Below are positions 1,272 through 11,673 of a stretch of DNA of 20,699 nucleotides, piece by piece. Numbering within the stretch: position 1 is the stretch's first letter; every line of letters begins with the position of its first letter. The stretch covers positions 1 through 20,699 of IMG/VR virus record IMGVR_UViG_3300048997_000371; one strand, given 5' to 3'. The DNA comes from a virus. Position numbers and translations under genes: made by a program. Under the pieces are notes generated by a model. The model saw only the letters and a list, made by a program, of their open reading frames with translations, searched no databases and was not told where the DNA came from.

Positions 1272-2762
1272 TTACCGGCTCTGCAGCACGACGAAGGGCG
1301 ACATGGTATTGGCGCCATTCTTCGGGGTGAGGGCGGTCGACCACCATGGCTGGCCATCGAGGCGCAGCATGAAGCGGAAAGCCTGCTCACCGGTGAGGAA
1401 GGCCACGTGCATCGATGAGTCGGCACGCAGGCCGCCGCGCTGGCCTAGGATGTACTGCGACATATCCGCGAGGATGATGTCTCCCTGGGTCGAGAGCGAT
1501 TGGCATTGCTCGATGGGAATTACCGGACGGCCGAGCAGCAACCCGTATTGATTGCCCCTCGTGCCGGGCGGCGTGTAGAGCAACTGCACCGCGGTTCCCG
1601 CACCGAGTACCAAGCTGTAGAGCTGGTCTTCGGTATCCTGGTTGATGAACCAGACCGCGTTCTGGCGGCTGGGCCCGTACAGGCGCTTCCACATCTTGAG
1701 CACGTTGTTGGTGACGATGGTTCCGGTCACCTGGCCGGCTTCTTTAAGCACCTGGATGAAGGCCGCGCTGTTGAGCACGCCCAGCGGCTGGCCGTCGCCC
1801 GGTCCGTTGATGCAGGCGTCGTCGATCTTGAAGGCGAATTCGCTCGGTACTGCGCGCTGAATATACGACTCGAGCGCGGGACCGTCGGCGAGCTGCTCTT
1901 CGGTGGCAAAGACCAGGCCCATGAGCTTTTGTGCGGTGAGCTGAATCTGGCGGAACTTCGGCTTGCTGCCGGTGTATGCCCCGGCTTCGTTCGCCCAGAA
2001 GGCCTGCAGGCCGCCCCAGCGGGATCCATCGACGCGGCTCTTTTCATCGACCGCGTTCATCACCAGCCGATTGGAACTCATCGGCTGCTGATAGCAGCGG
2101 CTGGCAACTTGCCCGGTGTCGTAGGTGCGCTGCAGCAGATCGGCCGTGTATTCCGGAGCGATCAGGAATCCGCCTTCGGAATCGACGGTCTCGTTGGCGC
2201 CCTGCGGACCGGCGCTGAGCCGCGGATCGACGACCCGGCTGTTGGTGACCGCCGCGGTCTTGATGGCCTGCAGCTGTTCGCCCAGGCTCTTGAAGCCCAT
2301 CTTCCTATCGACCGCCGGTGCGTTTACGACCGGAACCGCGCTGCGTTCGGCATCCAGGAAGGATTCGGTGCGCTCGATGTCTCCGGCGAGGACCGCGCGC
2401 TCGGATTTGATGGCGTCGATGCGCTTCCTTTCTTCGTCAGTGAAGCCGCGCTTATGTTCGGCCGCGGCGTTGATCAACGCCATACCTTCAGTGCGTAGAT
2501 CGCTGTCTTTCTGGCGAAGCAGTTTGATGTTGCCGGCGACGAGGACCGGCGCGACGGCGAGAGCGACGCCATGGCCGCTCTGACCGCTGAAGAGGTGAAA
2601 GCCGCCGAACAGCGCGACTCCTACGAGAAGAAGCAGTGCGAGCGGCCCGAGCAGCGCCAGCAGGCTGAAGCCTGCGACCCCGATCTGCCGCGCGGACACG
2701 TTCTCTCGCATATTGCGATAGAACTTCCGTTTTTCTCCGGCACTTCGAAACTTCATTTTCAT
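1272..2762 (-). CDS. HK97-type major capsid protein with hydrophobic N-terminal extension
   Basis: The main shell protein of the head, 496 residues. Residues about 77-140 are the charged helical delta (scaffold-like) region typical of HK97 capsid precursors. The core follows from about 185, with family landmarks ETVDSEGGFLIAPEY (191-205), WANEAGAYTGSKPKFRQI (256-273), INGPGDGQPLGVLN (318-331), YGLLLGRPVIPIEQ (406-419) and the closing GQPWWSTALTP (470-480). The first 76 residues are odd: a basic N-terminus, a strongly hydrophobic stretch at about 27-52 and a second one at about 64-77. Codons between this segment and the delta helix contain no ATG, GTG or TTG, so the extension cannot be trimmed by choosing a nearby start. 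AAGGA lies just before the first ATG (2762) and is better spaced for the ATG at 2756. The adjacent S49 protease probably removes the whole N-terminal part. Confidence 0.95.
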   Translation of the reverse strand: MKMKFRSAGEKRKFYRNMRENVSARQIGVAGFSLLALLGPLALLLLVGVALFGGFHLFSGQSGHGVALAVAPVLVAGNIKLLRQKDSDLRTEGMALINAAAEHKRGFTDEERKRIDAIKSERAVLAGDIERTESFLDAERSAVPVVNAPAVDRKMGFKSLGEQLQAIKTAAVTNSRVVDPRLSAGPQGANETVDSEGGFLIAPEYTADLLQRTYDTGQVASRCYQQPMSSNRLVMNAVDEKSRVDGSRWGGLQAFWANEAGAYTGSKPKFRQIQLTAQKLMGLVFATEEQLADGPALESYIQRAVPSEFAFKIDDACINGPGDGQPLGVLNSAAFIQVLKEAGQVTGTIVTNNVLKMWKRLYGPSRQNAVWFINQDTEDQLYSLVLGAGTAVQLLYTPPGTRGNQYGLLLGRPVIPIEQCQSLSTQGDIILADMSQYILGQRGGLRADSSMHVAFLTGEQAFRFMLRLDGQPWWSTALTPKNGANTMSPFVVLQSR

Positions 2763-2853
2763 TGTCCTTAATTGGGATTTGCCGACTGTGCTCGGCGTCG
2801 ACGGACGCGGGCAGTGCGGAGTACTGCGCGGCGCTTCGGCGCCGGAAAACTTG

Positions 2854-2928
2854 TGGAGCCGCTGGAAACTCGCTAGGTCCTCGACCTCCTGCTTAATAGG
2901 CAGGTGCTCTGCTCTGAGCTACAGCGGC
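2854..2928 (-). tRNA. tRNA-like gene, Asn-like anticodon loop, degenerate T arm
   Basis: 75 nt including an encoded CCA. Visible parts on the minus strand: a perfect 7-bp acceptor stem (GCCGCTG with CAGCGGC) followed by TCCA, TA at positions 8-9, a 4-bp D stem (GCTC with GAGC), and a perfect 5-bp anticodon stem (CCTGC with GCAGG) closing the 7-nt loop CTATTAA, which has the expected T33 and A37. The anticodon would be ATT (Asn codon AAU); bacterial tRNA-Asn normally has GTT. The D loop is short and lacks GG. The T arm (AGGAC, CTAGCGA, GTTTC) pairs poorly and lacks TTCRA. It lies between the protease and capsid genes. It may be a divergent phage tRNA, a decayed one, or a tRNA-like RNA element. 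Confidence 0.5.
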
Positions 2929-2947: not shown

Positions 2948-3967
2948 TTATGCAAGATCGAGGCGATGTCTCTCCAGGTCGAGGAGGATCTCGCGCTCTC
3001 CATCTTGCTGCTCGGGAATTTCTGGAATGGCTTCAGCCGCGGGCGCGATCGGCTCATGCGCATCTTCGTCATCGAGCGCTTGAGCTTCCGCTTTCAGGGC
3101 GCCGGCGCTGCGCGAGACGCCGTACTTCCCGAGGACCTGGTCGAGCGTCGCGACGCGATCGATCATCCCCAGCTTCAGCGCCTGCTGCGCGCTCACCGCG
3201 CGGCCCTGGCCGTAGCCATTGCGGACGTCGTCGGCTTTTACATTGCGCGCCCGGGCTACGGCGCGCGTGAACATCCCGTAGTTTTCATCGACCAGGCTCT
3301 GAAACGCCTGGCGGGCGTCGTCGGTCAGAGGCTCGAAGGGGTTTCCCTCGGTTTTGTATTTGCCGGCGCTGATCAGCGTCGTCTTTACGCCTTGCGCATC
3401 GATCGCCTTCGACCGCTCCTGGTGCGCGAGATACACTCCGATCGAACCGACGGCCGTCGAGGACGGTGTGGCGACGAGCTCGTCGGCCGAGCTGGCGATC
3501 CAGTAAGCCGCCGAGGCCATCTGCGTATTCGCAACCGCCGTCATCGGCTTTTTGCCGCGGGCCTTGAAGATCTCGTCGGCGAGCTCGGCAACTCCGTCCG
3601 TGGTTCCGCCCGGCGAATCCACGTCGATCACGATGGCTGAAACGTTTGGATCCGCGATCGCGGCGCGGAATGCCTGGGTGAATTTCTCGGTCGAGGTCCC
3701 GCGCGGTCCGGAGACATCGCTCATCATGTTGGCGCGATGGCTGATGATTCCGTAGAGAGGCAAAACGGCCACCGCTCCGGAAGGACCCGCAGCTGCGCGC
3801 GCGGCCGCGGCCAGAGATGCCGCCTGGATTCCAGCGAGGGTTGCGGGATCGACGAGTTGGCCCGAGGCCTTGAGCTCGAGAAAGGCGAGAATCGCTTCGA
3901 GCTTCTCTGGCTGGATCGCCCAGGGCACGGAATAGACCGCGCGCAGAATGCGCTGATAGGGTGTCAT
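2948..3967 (-). CDS. S49-family head maturation protease (SppA/protein C-like)
   Basis: A serine protease that cuts capsid precursors and scaffold during head assembly. The 339-residue protein starts at the ATG at 3967 (MTPYQRILRAVYSVPWAIQP), shortly after GAGGCG. The fold markers are visible: AIVIDVDSPGGTTDGVAELA (111-130), the nucleophile region TQMASAAYWIASSADELVAT with Ser152, VGSIGVYLAHQERSKAI (173-189), and the general-base region ISAGKYKTEGNPFEPL with Lys203/Lys205. An acidic tail after about 295 (QALDDEDAHEPIAP, EIPEIPEQQDGERE type) may serve a scaffolding role, as in other protease-scaffold proteins. The capsid gene follows after a tRNA-like element. Three virion genes separate the protease from the portal, which is less usual, since the protease most often follows the portal directly. 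Confidence 0.93.
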   Translation of the reverse strand: MTPYQRILRAVYSVPWAIQPEKLEAILAFLELKASGQLVDPATLAGIQAASLAAAARAAAGPSGAVAVLPLYGIISHRANMMSDVSGPRGTSTEKFTQAFRAAIADPNVSAIVIDVDSPGGTTDGVAELADEIFKARGKKPMTAVANTQMASAAYWIASSADELVATPSSTAVGSIGVYLAHQERSKAIDAQGVKTTLISAGKYKTEGNPFEPLTDDARQAFQSLVDENYGMFTRAVARARNVKADDVRNGYGQGRAVSAQQALKLGMIDRVATLDQVLGKYGVSRSAGALKAEAQALDDEDAHEPIAPAAEAIPEIPEQQDGEREILLDLERHRLDLA

Positions 3968-3981
3968 TTTGGGAATTCGCC

Positions 3982-4893
3982 TCAAGCCGCCATCATGATG
4001 GCGGCAAATATCTCTAACTCCACGTCCAGATGCTGGCCCTCGCCGGCGCATACCGGTCGTCGCTGCATCTCGATCACGGCGCCCCGGATGGCCTGTGGCT
4101 TCACTTCGCCTTCGGCGGCCGCGCGCTGTGCCTCTTGCCGCTCCCATGCTTGGCCGGCGATGATGACCGGCTCCACAGGTTCCGCTGGTTTGGCTTTTCG
4201 TCTCTCGGGCCGATTCTTTGGCTCCGACGCTCTCAGGTAGCTTCCGCCGCCAGCCAGAGGAGCACTGGCAGGGATTGACCCGGCAGATGACAGAAGCTGC
4301 GAGGTTTGCGCCATTCCCGCAGCGCCGGTAACGGCCGGCGGGAAGTCGAAGGCGCTGACCGTCTGTGGCGCTTGCGTCGTTGTTCCGGCGCCGATGAAGG
4401 CCTCTTGCGCCGGCGCGATCGCGCTCTGTTGCGATTGGCTGCTGGATCCGGTTCCACCAAACACCAAGCGCGCGACAACGGCCTCTCCCTGCGCTGCCTG
4501 AAACTCGGCGGAAGCTCCGGAGAATATTTCCTTGCCCGAAGCGGCGCTGGTTTGCGCGGCCTGAGCACCGGACTTCGCGCCGACGAAGGTTTGCTTTCCG
4601 GAGGCAGCTATCGCCTGCGCTGTTTGTGCGGATGACCTCGTACCGGTGAAGATGAGCTTGCCCGACCCGGAGACGCTCTGTGCCGACTGCGCATCGGCTT
4701 CGCTGGCTGCGAAGATCAGCTTCCCGGCCACCGCCGCTGTCTGAACAGACTGAGCGCTGGACTCGGTCCCGCTAATCGCCGGTACCGGTTGCGGCTGGGC
4801 GACCAGCCTGCTGGGGGCAACAGTCGGCTTACCGGATTGATCGACAACCTGCTTCAGTATGTTGCCGGTGCCGAAAACCTGTGACGATCGCAT
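3982..4893 (-). CDS. Virion-associated protein with 21-residue tandem repeats; function unknown
   Basis: 303 residues, not assignable to a known family. Residues 40 to about 186 hold seven repeats with an exact period of 21, marked by an aromatic or aliphatic residue at 40, 61, 82, 103, 124, 145 and 166. The consensus is F-x-G-x-x-S-x-A-Q-x-A-Q-x-x-A-x-S-G-K-x-x. The later repeats lose the GK ending, and a weaker eighth copy follows. The repeats are rich in Ala, Ser, Gln and Gly, fitting a beta-solenoid or extended fibrous fold. From about 222 a basic, Pro-rich segment (PKNRPERRKAKPAEPVEPVI) leads to a helical end (AWERQEAQRAAAEG). It sits in the head operon between a virion gene and the protease, so it is probably structural or an assembly factor. 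There is no signal peptide or membrane segment. Confidence 0.8.
   Translation of the reverse strand: MRSSQVFGTGNILKQVVDQSGKPTVAPSRLVAQPQPVPAISGTESSAQSVQTAAVAGKLIFAASEADAQSAQSVSGSGKLIFTGTRSSAQTAQAIAASGKQTFVGAKSGAQAAQTSAASGKEIFSGASAEFQAAQGEAVVARLVFGGTGSSSQSQQSAIAPAQEAFIGAGTTTQAPQTVSAFDFPPAVTGAAGMAQTSQLLSSAGSIPASAPLAGGGSYLRASEPKNRPERRKAKPAEPVEPVIIAGQAWERQEAQRAAAEGEVKPQAIRGAVIEMQRRPVCAGEGQHLDVELEIFAAIMMAA
4336..4776 (-). repeat. Seven in-frame 63-bp coding repeats
   Basis: This is the DNA region encoding residues 40-186 of the repeat protein, with a 63-bp period. The copies share the AQxxQ and (S/A)GK(x)(I/L)F codons but have diverged at the nucleotide level. The array is therefore old rather than a fresh slippage product, although copy number could still vary by recombination. 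Confidence 0.8.
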
Positions 4894-11268: not shown

Positions 11269-11673
11269 TTACAGTTTGTCTTCGCTGTTGTAGATCACGC
11301 TGTAATTGATGGCGCCGATGATCGCGAACGCGAAGCCGAGCAGCAAGAGTCCGTTCGAGGTGACGATGTCTGCGCGCCCCAGCGTCAGATCGATATGCGT
11401 GTAGTGCCCGATGAGCATCAGCATGATGCCCACAAACGTGAGGAACGGCCGGATCTTCACAAACTGCGAAGCCGCGGCGAGCACCGAGTTGGTATCGGGA
11501 ATCTCGAGGAACTTGCGGCCGGCGTCGCCGATCAGGTGCAGCAACACGCAAAATGCGGCCGCGGCGATCAGACTCCAGTTGCGATGCGCGAGGCCAAACA
11601 GGAAAAACATCAGCGCGGCGGCGATTCCGCCGAGCTGCAGAACTGAAGCCGCAACTCTTCCGAAAGATTTCAT
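11269..11673 (-). CDS. Four-helix membrane protein
   Basis: 134 residues with four predicted membrane helices at about 10-29 (SVLQLGGIAAALMFFLFGL), 33-49, 74-92 (IRPFLTFVGIMLMLIGH) and 106-127 (SNGLLLLGFAFAIIGAINYS). No cleavable signal is needed and no enzyme motif is visible. It has a good ribosome site (GAGAGAGGATCAA before the ATG) and starts 12 bp after a 2-TM protein gene. Its place next to a 2-TM protein, a membrane-anchored helical protein and a lipoprotein suggests a lysis or superinfection-exclusion role, and a holin is one option. No endolysin was found nearby to support this. Confidence 0.75.
   Translation of the reverse strand: MKSFGRVAASVLQLGGIAAALMFFLFGLAHRNWSLIAAAAFCVLLHLIGDAGRKFLEIPDTNSVLAAASQFVKIRPFLTFVGIMLMLIGHYTHIDLTLGRADIVTSNGLLLLGFAFAIIGAINYSVIYNSEDKL

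Follow-up and report, generated by a model that had tools for sequence, protein, structure and literature searches.

What does an HK97-type phage capsid gain from beginning with a stretch that looks as if it belongs in a membrane, and where did that stretch come from? The question is raised by 20,699 nucleotides of viral DNA (the window; IMG/VR record IMGVR_UViG_3300048997_000371, an incomplete virus record), in which a capsid precursor gene opens with an unusual N-terminal extension. The original prediction, made from the letters of the window, described a basic N-terminus followed by two hydrophobic segments ahead of the delta domain, and offered a membrane tether, a lost-stop fusion with a small membrane gene, or a pro-peptide removed by the S49 protease as explanations.

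The capsid precursor and its extension

All the family tests place the window capsid among ordinary HK97-type proteins. PF05065, the phage capsid family, covers residues 197-475 (3.7e-41), and the HK97 capsid model TIGR01554 matches the 494-residue form of the protein, counted from Met3, from residue 86 (4.3e-55). The AlphaFold2 model (mean pLDDT 80.9) had its best Foldseek matches in the known capsids named in Table 1 (probability 1.00), and placed a two-helix coiled coil (helices 72-100 and 107-139, Met3 numbering) before the body. This delta domain aligns with the N-termini of relatives that lack the extension, and the gene lies, as in other HK97-type phages, after a prohead protease gene. 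The sequence ahead of about residue 78 is outside the known family: where HK97-type capsids usually have a soluble N-terminus, the window has a predicted membrane-inserting helix. Because a soluble N-terminus is a usual rather than a defining trait, the assignment to the HK97 type stands.

The reading frame is open from the extension into the capsid body recognised by PF05065 and TIGR01554, which confirms the predicted fusion of a hydrophobic extension with an HK97-type capsid. Within the extension, in-frame starts occur at codon 18 (ATG) and codon 22 (GTG); between codon 22 and the ATG at codon 94 of the capsid ORF there is none, and the claim that no start separates the extension from the delta helix holds. 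The ribosome site that had been noted before the extension is present as AAGGA, better placed for the second ATG than for the first. Since its spacing is 8 nt to the ATG at 2756 and 2 nt to that at 2762, and since the related capsid L002 begins at the Met equivalent to the second ATG, translation seems more likely to start at 2756 (Met3).

The extension opens with a basic tail, as originally described. A hydrophobic helix whose centre holds a proline comes next, then a loop containing His; a second and weak hydrophobic stretch leads from there into the delta domain (Table 1). The hydrophobic stretch 27-58 has a peak Kyte-Doolittle 19-residue mean of 2.75, and the length of the main hydrophobic stretch (26-27 residues) is anchor-like. 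Insertion energies were calculated with the published biological hydrophobicity scale; as controls, bacteriorhodopsin helix A, glycophorin and a soluble helix behaved as expected. The hydrophobic helix had a dG of -3.65 kcal/mol in the window, and of -1.63, -3.35 and -2.61 kcal/mol in the three relatives that bear an extension (L002, L134 and L010, respectively); by these estimates its hydrophobicity suffices for entry into a bilayer. The second stretch, uncharged in all four bearers, had a dG of +1.84 kcal/mol in the window and of +2.4 to +3.0 kcal/mol in the three relatives, and AlphaFold2 modelled it as coil with a pLDDT below 50. The two hydrophobic segments of the original prediction therefore become one strong and one doubtful segment. 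The loop has hardly any charge and contains 2-5 His in the four bearers; in the window these are H56, which lies within the end of the helix, and H64. In the AlphaFold2 model, one continuous helix (6-53) is followed by coil of pLDDT below 50 to about residue 72 and then by the two delta helices, and a second model, led by L134, had the same layout with the helix broken or kinked at the proline.

Table 1. Features of the capsid locus in the window (all on the minus strand)
Feature	Position	Evidence or remark
Capsid precursor ORF, HK97-type	1272-2762 (-); better start 2756	496 residues from Met1, no internal stop
Capsid gene stop codon	1272..1274 (-)	
HK97-fold capsid body	1338..2174 (-)	PF05065; Foldseek: GTA, T5 and HK97 prohead I capsids
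Delta (scaffolding) domain, two-helix coiled coil	2340..2531 (-)	AlphaFold2 and alignment; begins NIKLLRQ
N-terminal extension	2532..2756 (-)	75 aa from Met3; 77 aa from Met1 (2762)
Second, weak hydrophobic stretch VALAVAPVLVAG	2532..2567 (-)	residues 66-77
Loop without K, R, D or E	2568..2588 (-)	charge maps and alignment
Strongly hydrophobic helix FSLLALLGPLALLLLVGVALFGGFHLF	2589..2669 (-)	residues 32-58; invariant Pro40
Basic N-terminal segment MKFRSAGEKRKFYRNMRENVSARQ	2685..2756 (-)	core motif AGE[KR]RKFYRN
Ribosome-binding region TTAAGGACA	2763..2773 (-)	direct reading
S49-family prohead protease, adjoins the capsid gene	2948..3967 (-)	PF01343, 3.4e-36

Distribution and origin of the extension

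When viral contigs were scanned with the capsid, 45 related loci came up; in L002 and L010 the match begins at residue 2-3. The extension alignment, used in a further scan, added L133 and L134, one sequence present on two contigs (7650 of 7652 bases equal). The same architecture was thus found in three other viral contig lineages, L002, L134 and L010, each of which carries, like the window, a single copy of the extension. L002 is 66% identical to the window in the capsid body. L134 is 41% identical in the extension and only 27% in the body. Over the first 25 residues of the extension, identity to these two is 65-70% (70% for L134), and conservation is higher in the basic tail motif AGEKRKFYRN than in the hydrophobic part. 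Against shuffled sequences the extension scored z = 12 with both L002 and L134, and leave-one-out profiles recovered L134 at 6.5e-9 (built without L134) and L002 at 1.7e-5 (built without L002). L010 is 55% identical to the window in the body; its extension is too diverged for proof of homology. Since a profile built from the window, L002 and L134 did not detect the L010 extension, L010 shares the architecture and the place of the extension rather than a proven ancestry. Good ribosome sites also precede the L134 and L010 extensions. The occurrence of the extension on independent contigs, joined to close and to distant capsids, rejects an assembly error. Taken together, the comparisons at the sequence level demonstrated that the extension is real, conserved, modular and rare, and joined directly to the delta domain.

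How rare it is was seen in several searches. Outside the L002 and L134 lineages, L010 alone among 80 dereplicated capsids has a strongly hydrophobic N-terminus, and the next highest N-terminal mean among them is 1.19. The exact codon-degenerate motif AGE[KR]RKFYRN occurs in only 3 contig records in IMG/VR; an extra contig from a relaxed motif scan (L155) turned out to match by chance, in a frame of 27 residues. By tblastn with E up to 10, the extension had no match in about 50,700 phage records or in 72,500 plasmids, and a capsid-pattern scan of bacterial genomes returned only Bacillota prophage-like loci, in which the extension was not detected. Capsid and portal matches in the phage records were below 60% identity and spread across many hosts. 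Matches of the extension in Pfam and NCBIfam were marginal and below curated cut-offs, those in PHROGs had E values of 0.05 or worse, and the best in PDB was 0.85. With no match above curated thresholds in these four collections, the extension is, as judged from sequence, a new and rare domain.

In each bearer, the end of the extension coincides with the point at which closely related capsids begin. The closest capsids without an extension (L003/L004 and L006, 57-59% identical) begin with MNIKLLRQ or MNIKHLRQ at the equivalent of window N78; the nearest relatives of L134 (45-51%) begin with MSLSKIREL or MTIKEM at the equivalent of L134 N73; and the relatives of L010 begin with MKNINALRQ. Most homologues do start near residue 77 (such a start in all close homologues had been named as evidence against a genuine extension), while the bearers start before it. 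A tree of 79 capsid bodies, in which the L134 branch is very long, needs three changes of the trait; the starred branches force all three, and a single change was obtained in none of 200 bootstrap trees. At least two, and probably three, separate capsid branches appear to have acquired the module. One early gain followed by many losses is still conceivable, but because the window and L134 are more alike in their extensions than in their bodies, module transfer is the simpler reading. The best reading is that the extension represents a rare and new, horizontally exchanged domain that became joined to HK97-type capsid genes at their start codon.

Neither a profile nor a hydrophobic-ORF scan found a stand-alone small membrane gene upstream of the relatives' capsids, and the few small hydrophobic ORFs near these capsids have no similarity to the extension. 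Stand-alone homologues were also not found in the relatives' flanks, the four bearers, or the phage or plasmid records. Because no stand-alone version was found in these places and gains fell on at least two capsid branches, the casual lost-stop fusion that the original prediction had allowed for is unlikely.

A possible role in prohead assembly at the membrane

We tentatively propose, as a reading somewhat short of probable, that the extension is a mobile membrane-targeting pro-domain, which would tether the capsid precursor to the inner membrane while the prohead is being assembled, and would leave together with the delta domain. The nascent chain would be delivered to the inner membrane by SRP, Sec or YidC, and the first helix would be captured by the membrane during translation while the basic tail stays cytoplasmic. 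Either the hydrophobic helix and the weak second stretch would form a hairpin, or the helix broken at its proline would act as a re-entrant anchor, such that the delta domain and the capsid body remain in the cytoplasm. Because such an anchor would keep the body cytoplasmic yet tethered, subunits or early capsomers could concentrate at the membrane and the prohead could grow there. Once the prohead protease had cut away the delta domain, the anchor would be gone as well, and the shell would be released for packaging. The membrane step, the topology and the cleavage are the parts of this proposal that we infer. The basic N-flank and the uncharged remainder of the extension agree with an N-in topology. 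Since the body needs the cytoplasm for DNA packaging and the basic tail argues for N-in, the chain would have to return across the membrane, and this step appears to be the weakest point of the mechanism: the second stretch is by prediction too weak to insert alone and is not modelled as a helix, and with a single N-in helix the capsid would end up in the periplasm. The delta domain of HK97 proheads is on the inner side of the shell; if all subunits had anchors, the interior would therefore have to resemble a membrane or micelle, unless cleavage came early. In a bolder form of the proposal, which we regard as decidedly improbable, every precursor subunit is a membrane protein, host membrane, as a patch or a vesicle, is the scaffold on or around which the prohead is built, and the anchor module is passed between phages.

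Assembly at the membrane has a precedent in T4: head assembly begins at the inner membrane, with gp40 and YidC taking part, the portal initiator lies on that membrane, and the maturation cleavages precede release of the prohead (PMC4493910, PMC9958956). The T4 initiator is membrane-bound and has no recognisable transmembrane sequence (PMC4493910), and according to a review, membrane association of proheads in assembly has been shown for T4 and not for other phages (PMC3185693). The likeness of the window capsid to the T4 system of portal gp20, chaperone gp40 and host YidC would lie in the proposed membrane start of the prohead and its later release; in T4 the anchor is on the portal initiator, whereas in the window phage each capsid subunit would carry the hydrophobic segment. 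The procoat of the filamentous phage M13 resembles the proposed precursor in that hydrophobic coat segments are inserted in the inner membrane before assembly, but its fold and virion are unrelated, and the hydrophobic part of the window capsid precursor would belong to a pro-domain and not to the mature shell. The membrane-containing phage PRD1 is relevant to a reading with a lipid core in the shell, but has a double jelly-roll capsid and separate membrane proteins. Among tailed phages of the HK97 fold we know of none with an internal membrane, and no HK97-type capsid with a transmembrane N-terminus was seen among the papers listed in a literature search. What sets the window capsid apart from other HK97-type capsids of the same fold is the membrane-type domain before the delta domain, otherwise found only in L010 among the 80 capsids. 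A capsid with its own membrane domain makes the relation between prohead and membrane testable in one gene, with the relatives that lack the extension as natural controls.

Several other explanations were weighed against the membrane tether. The problem of single-span topology would disappear if the extensions of many subunits came together within the prohead as it grows, forming a protein micelle that might include lipid and adding to the delta domains as a hydrophobic core scaffold with no need of stable insertion in the host membrane. The position of the extension before the delta domain, which faces the interior in HK97, and the single long helix that runs toward the delta coiled coil in the AlphaFold2 model agree with this. 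We nevertheless consider it unlikely: a helix with a dG of -3.7 and a strongly basic flank is normally captured by SRP during translation, and a mere greasy core would need no tail motif better conserved than the hydrophobic part. Less likely again is that the capsid gene encodes a polyprotein, from which the prohead protease frees a small membrane protein such as a holin-like or exclusion peptide. Such proteins do resemble the basic tail and hydrophobic helix, and exchange between capsids would suit a passenger module; but stand-alone homologues were lacking in the fetched flanks, the bearers, and the phage and plasmid records, production at capsid level would be unusual for a holin-like or exclusion role, and the window already has a separate holin-like ORF (11269-11673, weak PF10746 match).

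A leader resembling a signal peptide, which would only deliver the nascent chain and then be cut by a host or phage protease near the relatives' start to leave an ordinary precursor, might explain why the junction coincides with the relatives' N-terminus and why the window and L134 have a tripartite look (basic, hydrophobic, then VAG-N or LAG-N, where a type I signal peptide would have an AXA-type cleavage site). Nothing similar is present in L002 or L010, however, and their junctions (IPTE-N and AVAPL-N) share no cleavage motif; the hydrophobic stretch has the length of an anchor, and export would take the capsid out of the cytoplasm. We think this very improbable. Hardly credible is that the extension is never translated, with synthesis starting at a non-standard codon downstream and the upstream frame a relic. 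ATC or CTG codons do lie near the junction, where the relatives start, but no Shine-Dalgarno sequence precedes them, whereas AAGGA precedes Met3 and good ribosome sites precede the L134 and L010 extensions; moreover, the frame and the basic motif are conserved with L134 despite 27% body identity.

Prohead proteases and neighbouring elements

The family of the upstream protease differs among the bearers: S49 in the window, ClpP-type S14 in L010 and HK97-type S78 in L134. A link of the extension to the S49 protease is therefore rejected. The pro-peptide idea of the original prediction is weakened as far as removal by S49 in particular is concerned, because the extension also occurs beside S14 and S78 proteases; loss of the extension together with the delta domain is possible. 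The maturation proteases that accompany these capsids are of three kinds, and the module was apparently gained separately on the capsids; it may therefore confer an advantage of its own.

Proteases of these three unrelated families share, in their C-terminal part, a Cys-rich acidic segment of the form CxCxxCxxxxCxxC...C (in L010, ECECDCPECKDGNCAECSDPDCEDPNC). The segment was seen in S49 (L003, L014, L018, L120), S14 (L007, L009, L010) and S78 proteases (L134, L140/L158); examples are the genes at 2863-3762 in L010, 1748-2737 in L007 and 2605-3855 in L140. Loci with such upstream proteases are L003, L007-L012, L014, L015, L018, L019, L070, L078, L120, L133, L140, L142, L144, L148 and L158. The segment may be a metal-binding module common to different maturation proteases. 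The S49 protease of the window is without it.

Between the protease and capsid genes of the window, a tRNA-like element (2860-2926, minus strand) scored 29.4 bits with the Rfam tRNA model, just above the cut-off. Its acceptor stem (GCCGCTG/CAGCGGC) is perfect, but with its degenerate T arm the element is not accepted by ARAGORN; it was not found in the seven relatives checked. Between the portal and protease genes, positions 3982-4893 (minus strand) encode a 303-residue protein with degenerate repeats (AQ.AQ..A.SGK..F.G) and no Pfam match. In L040 and L072, the capsid ORFs (805 and 837 aa, respectively) seem to hold protease and capsid fused in one frame.
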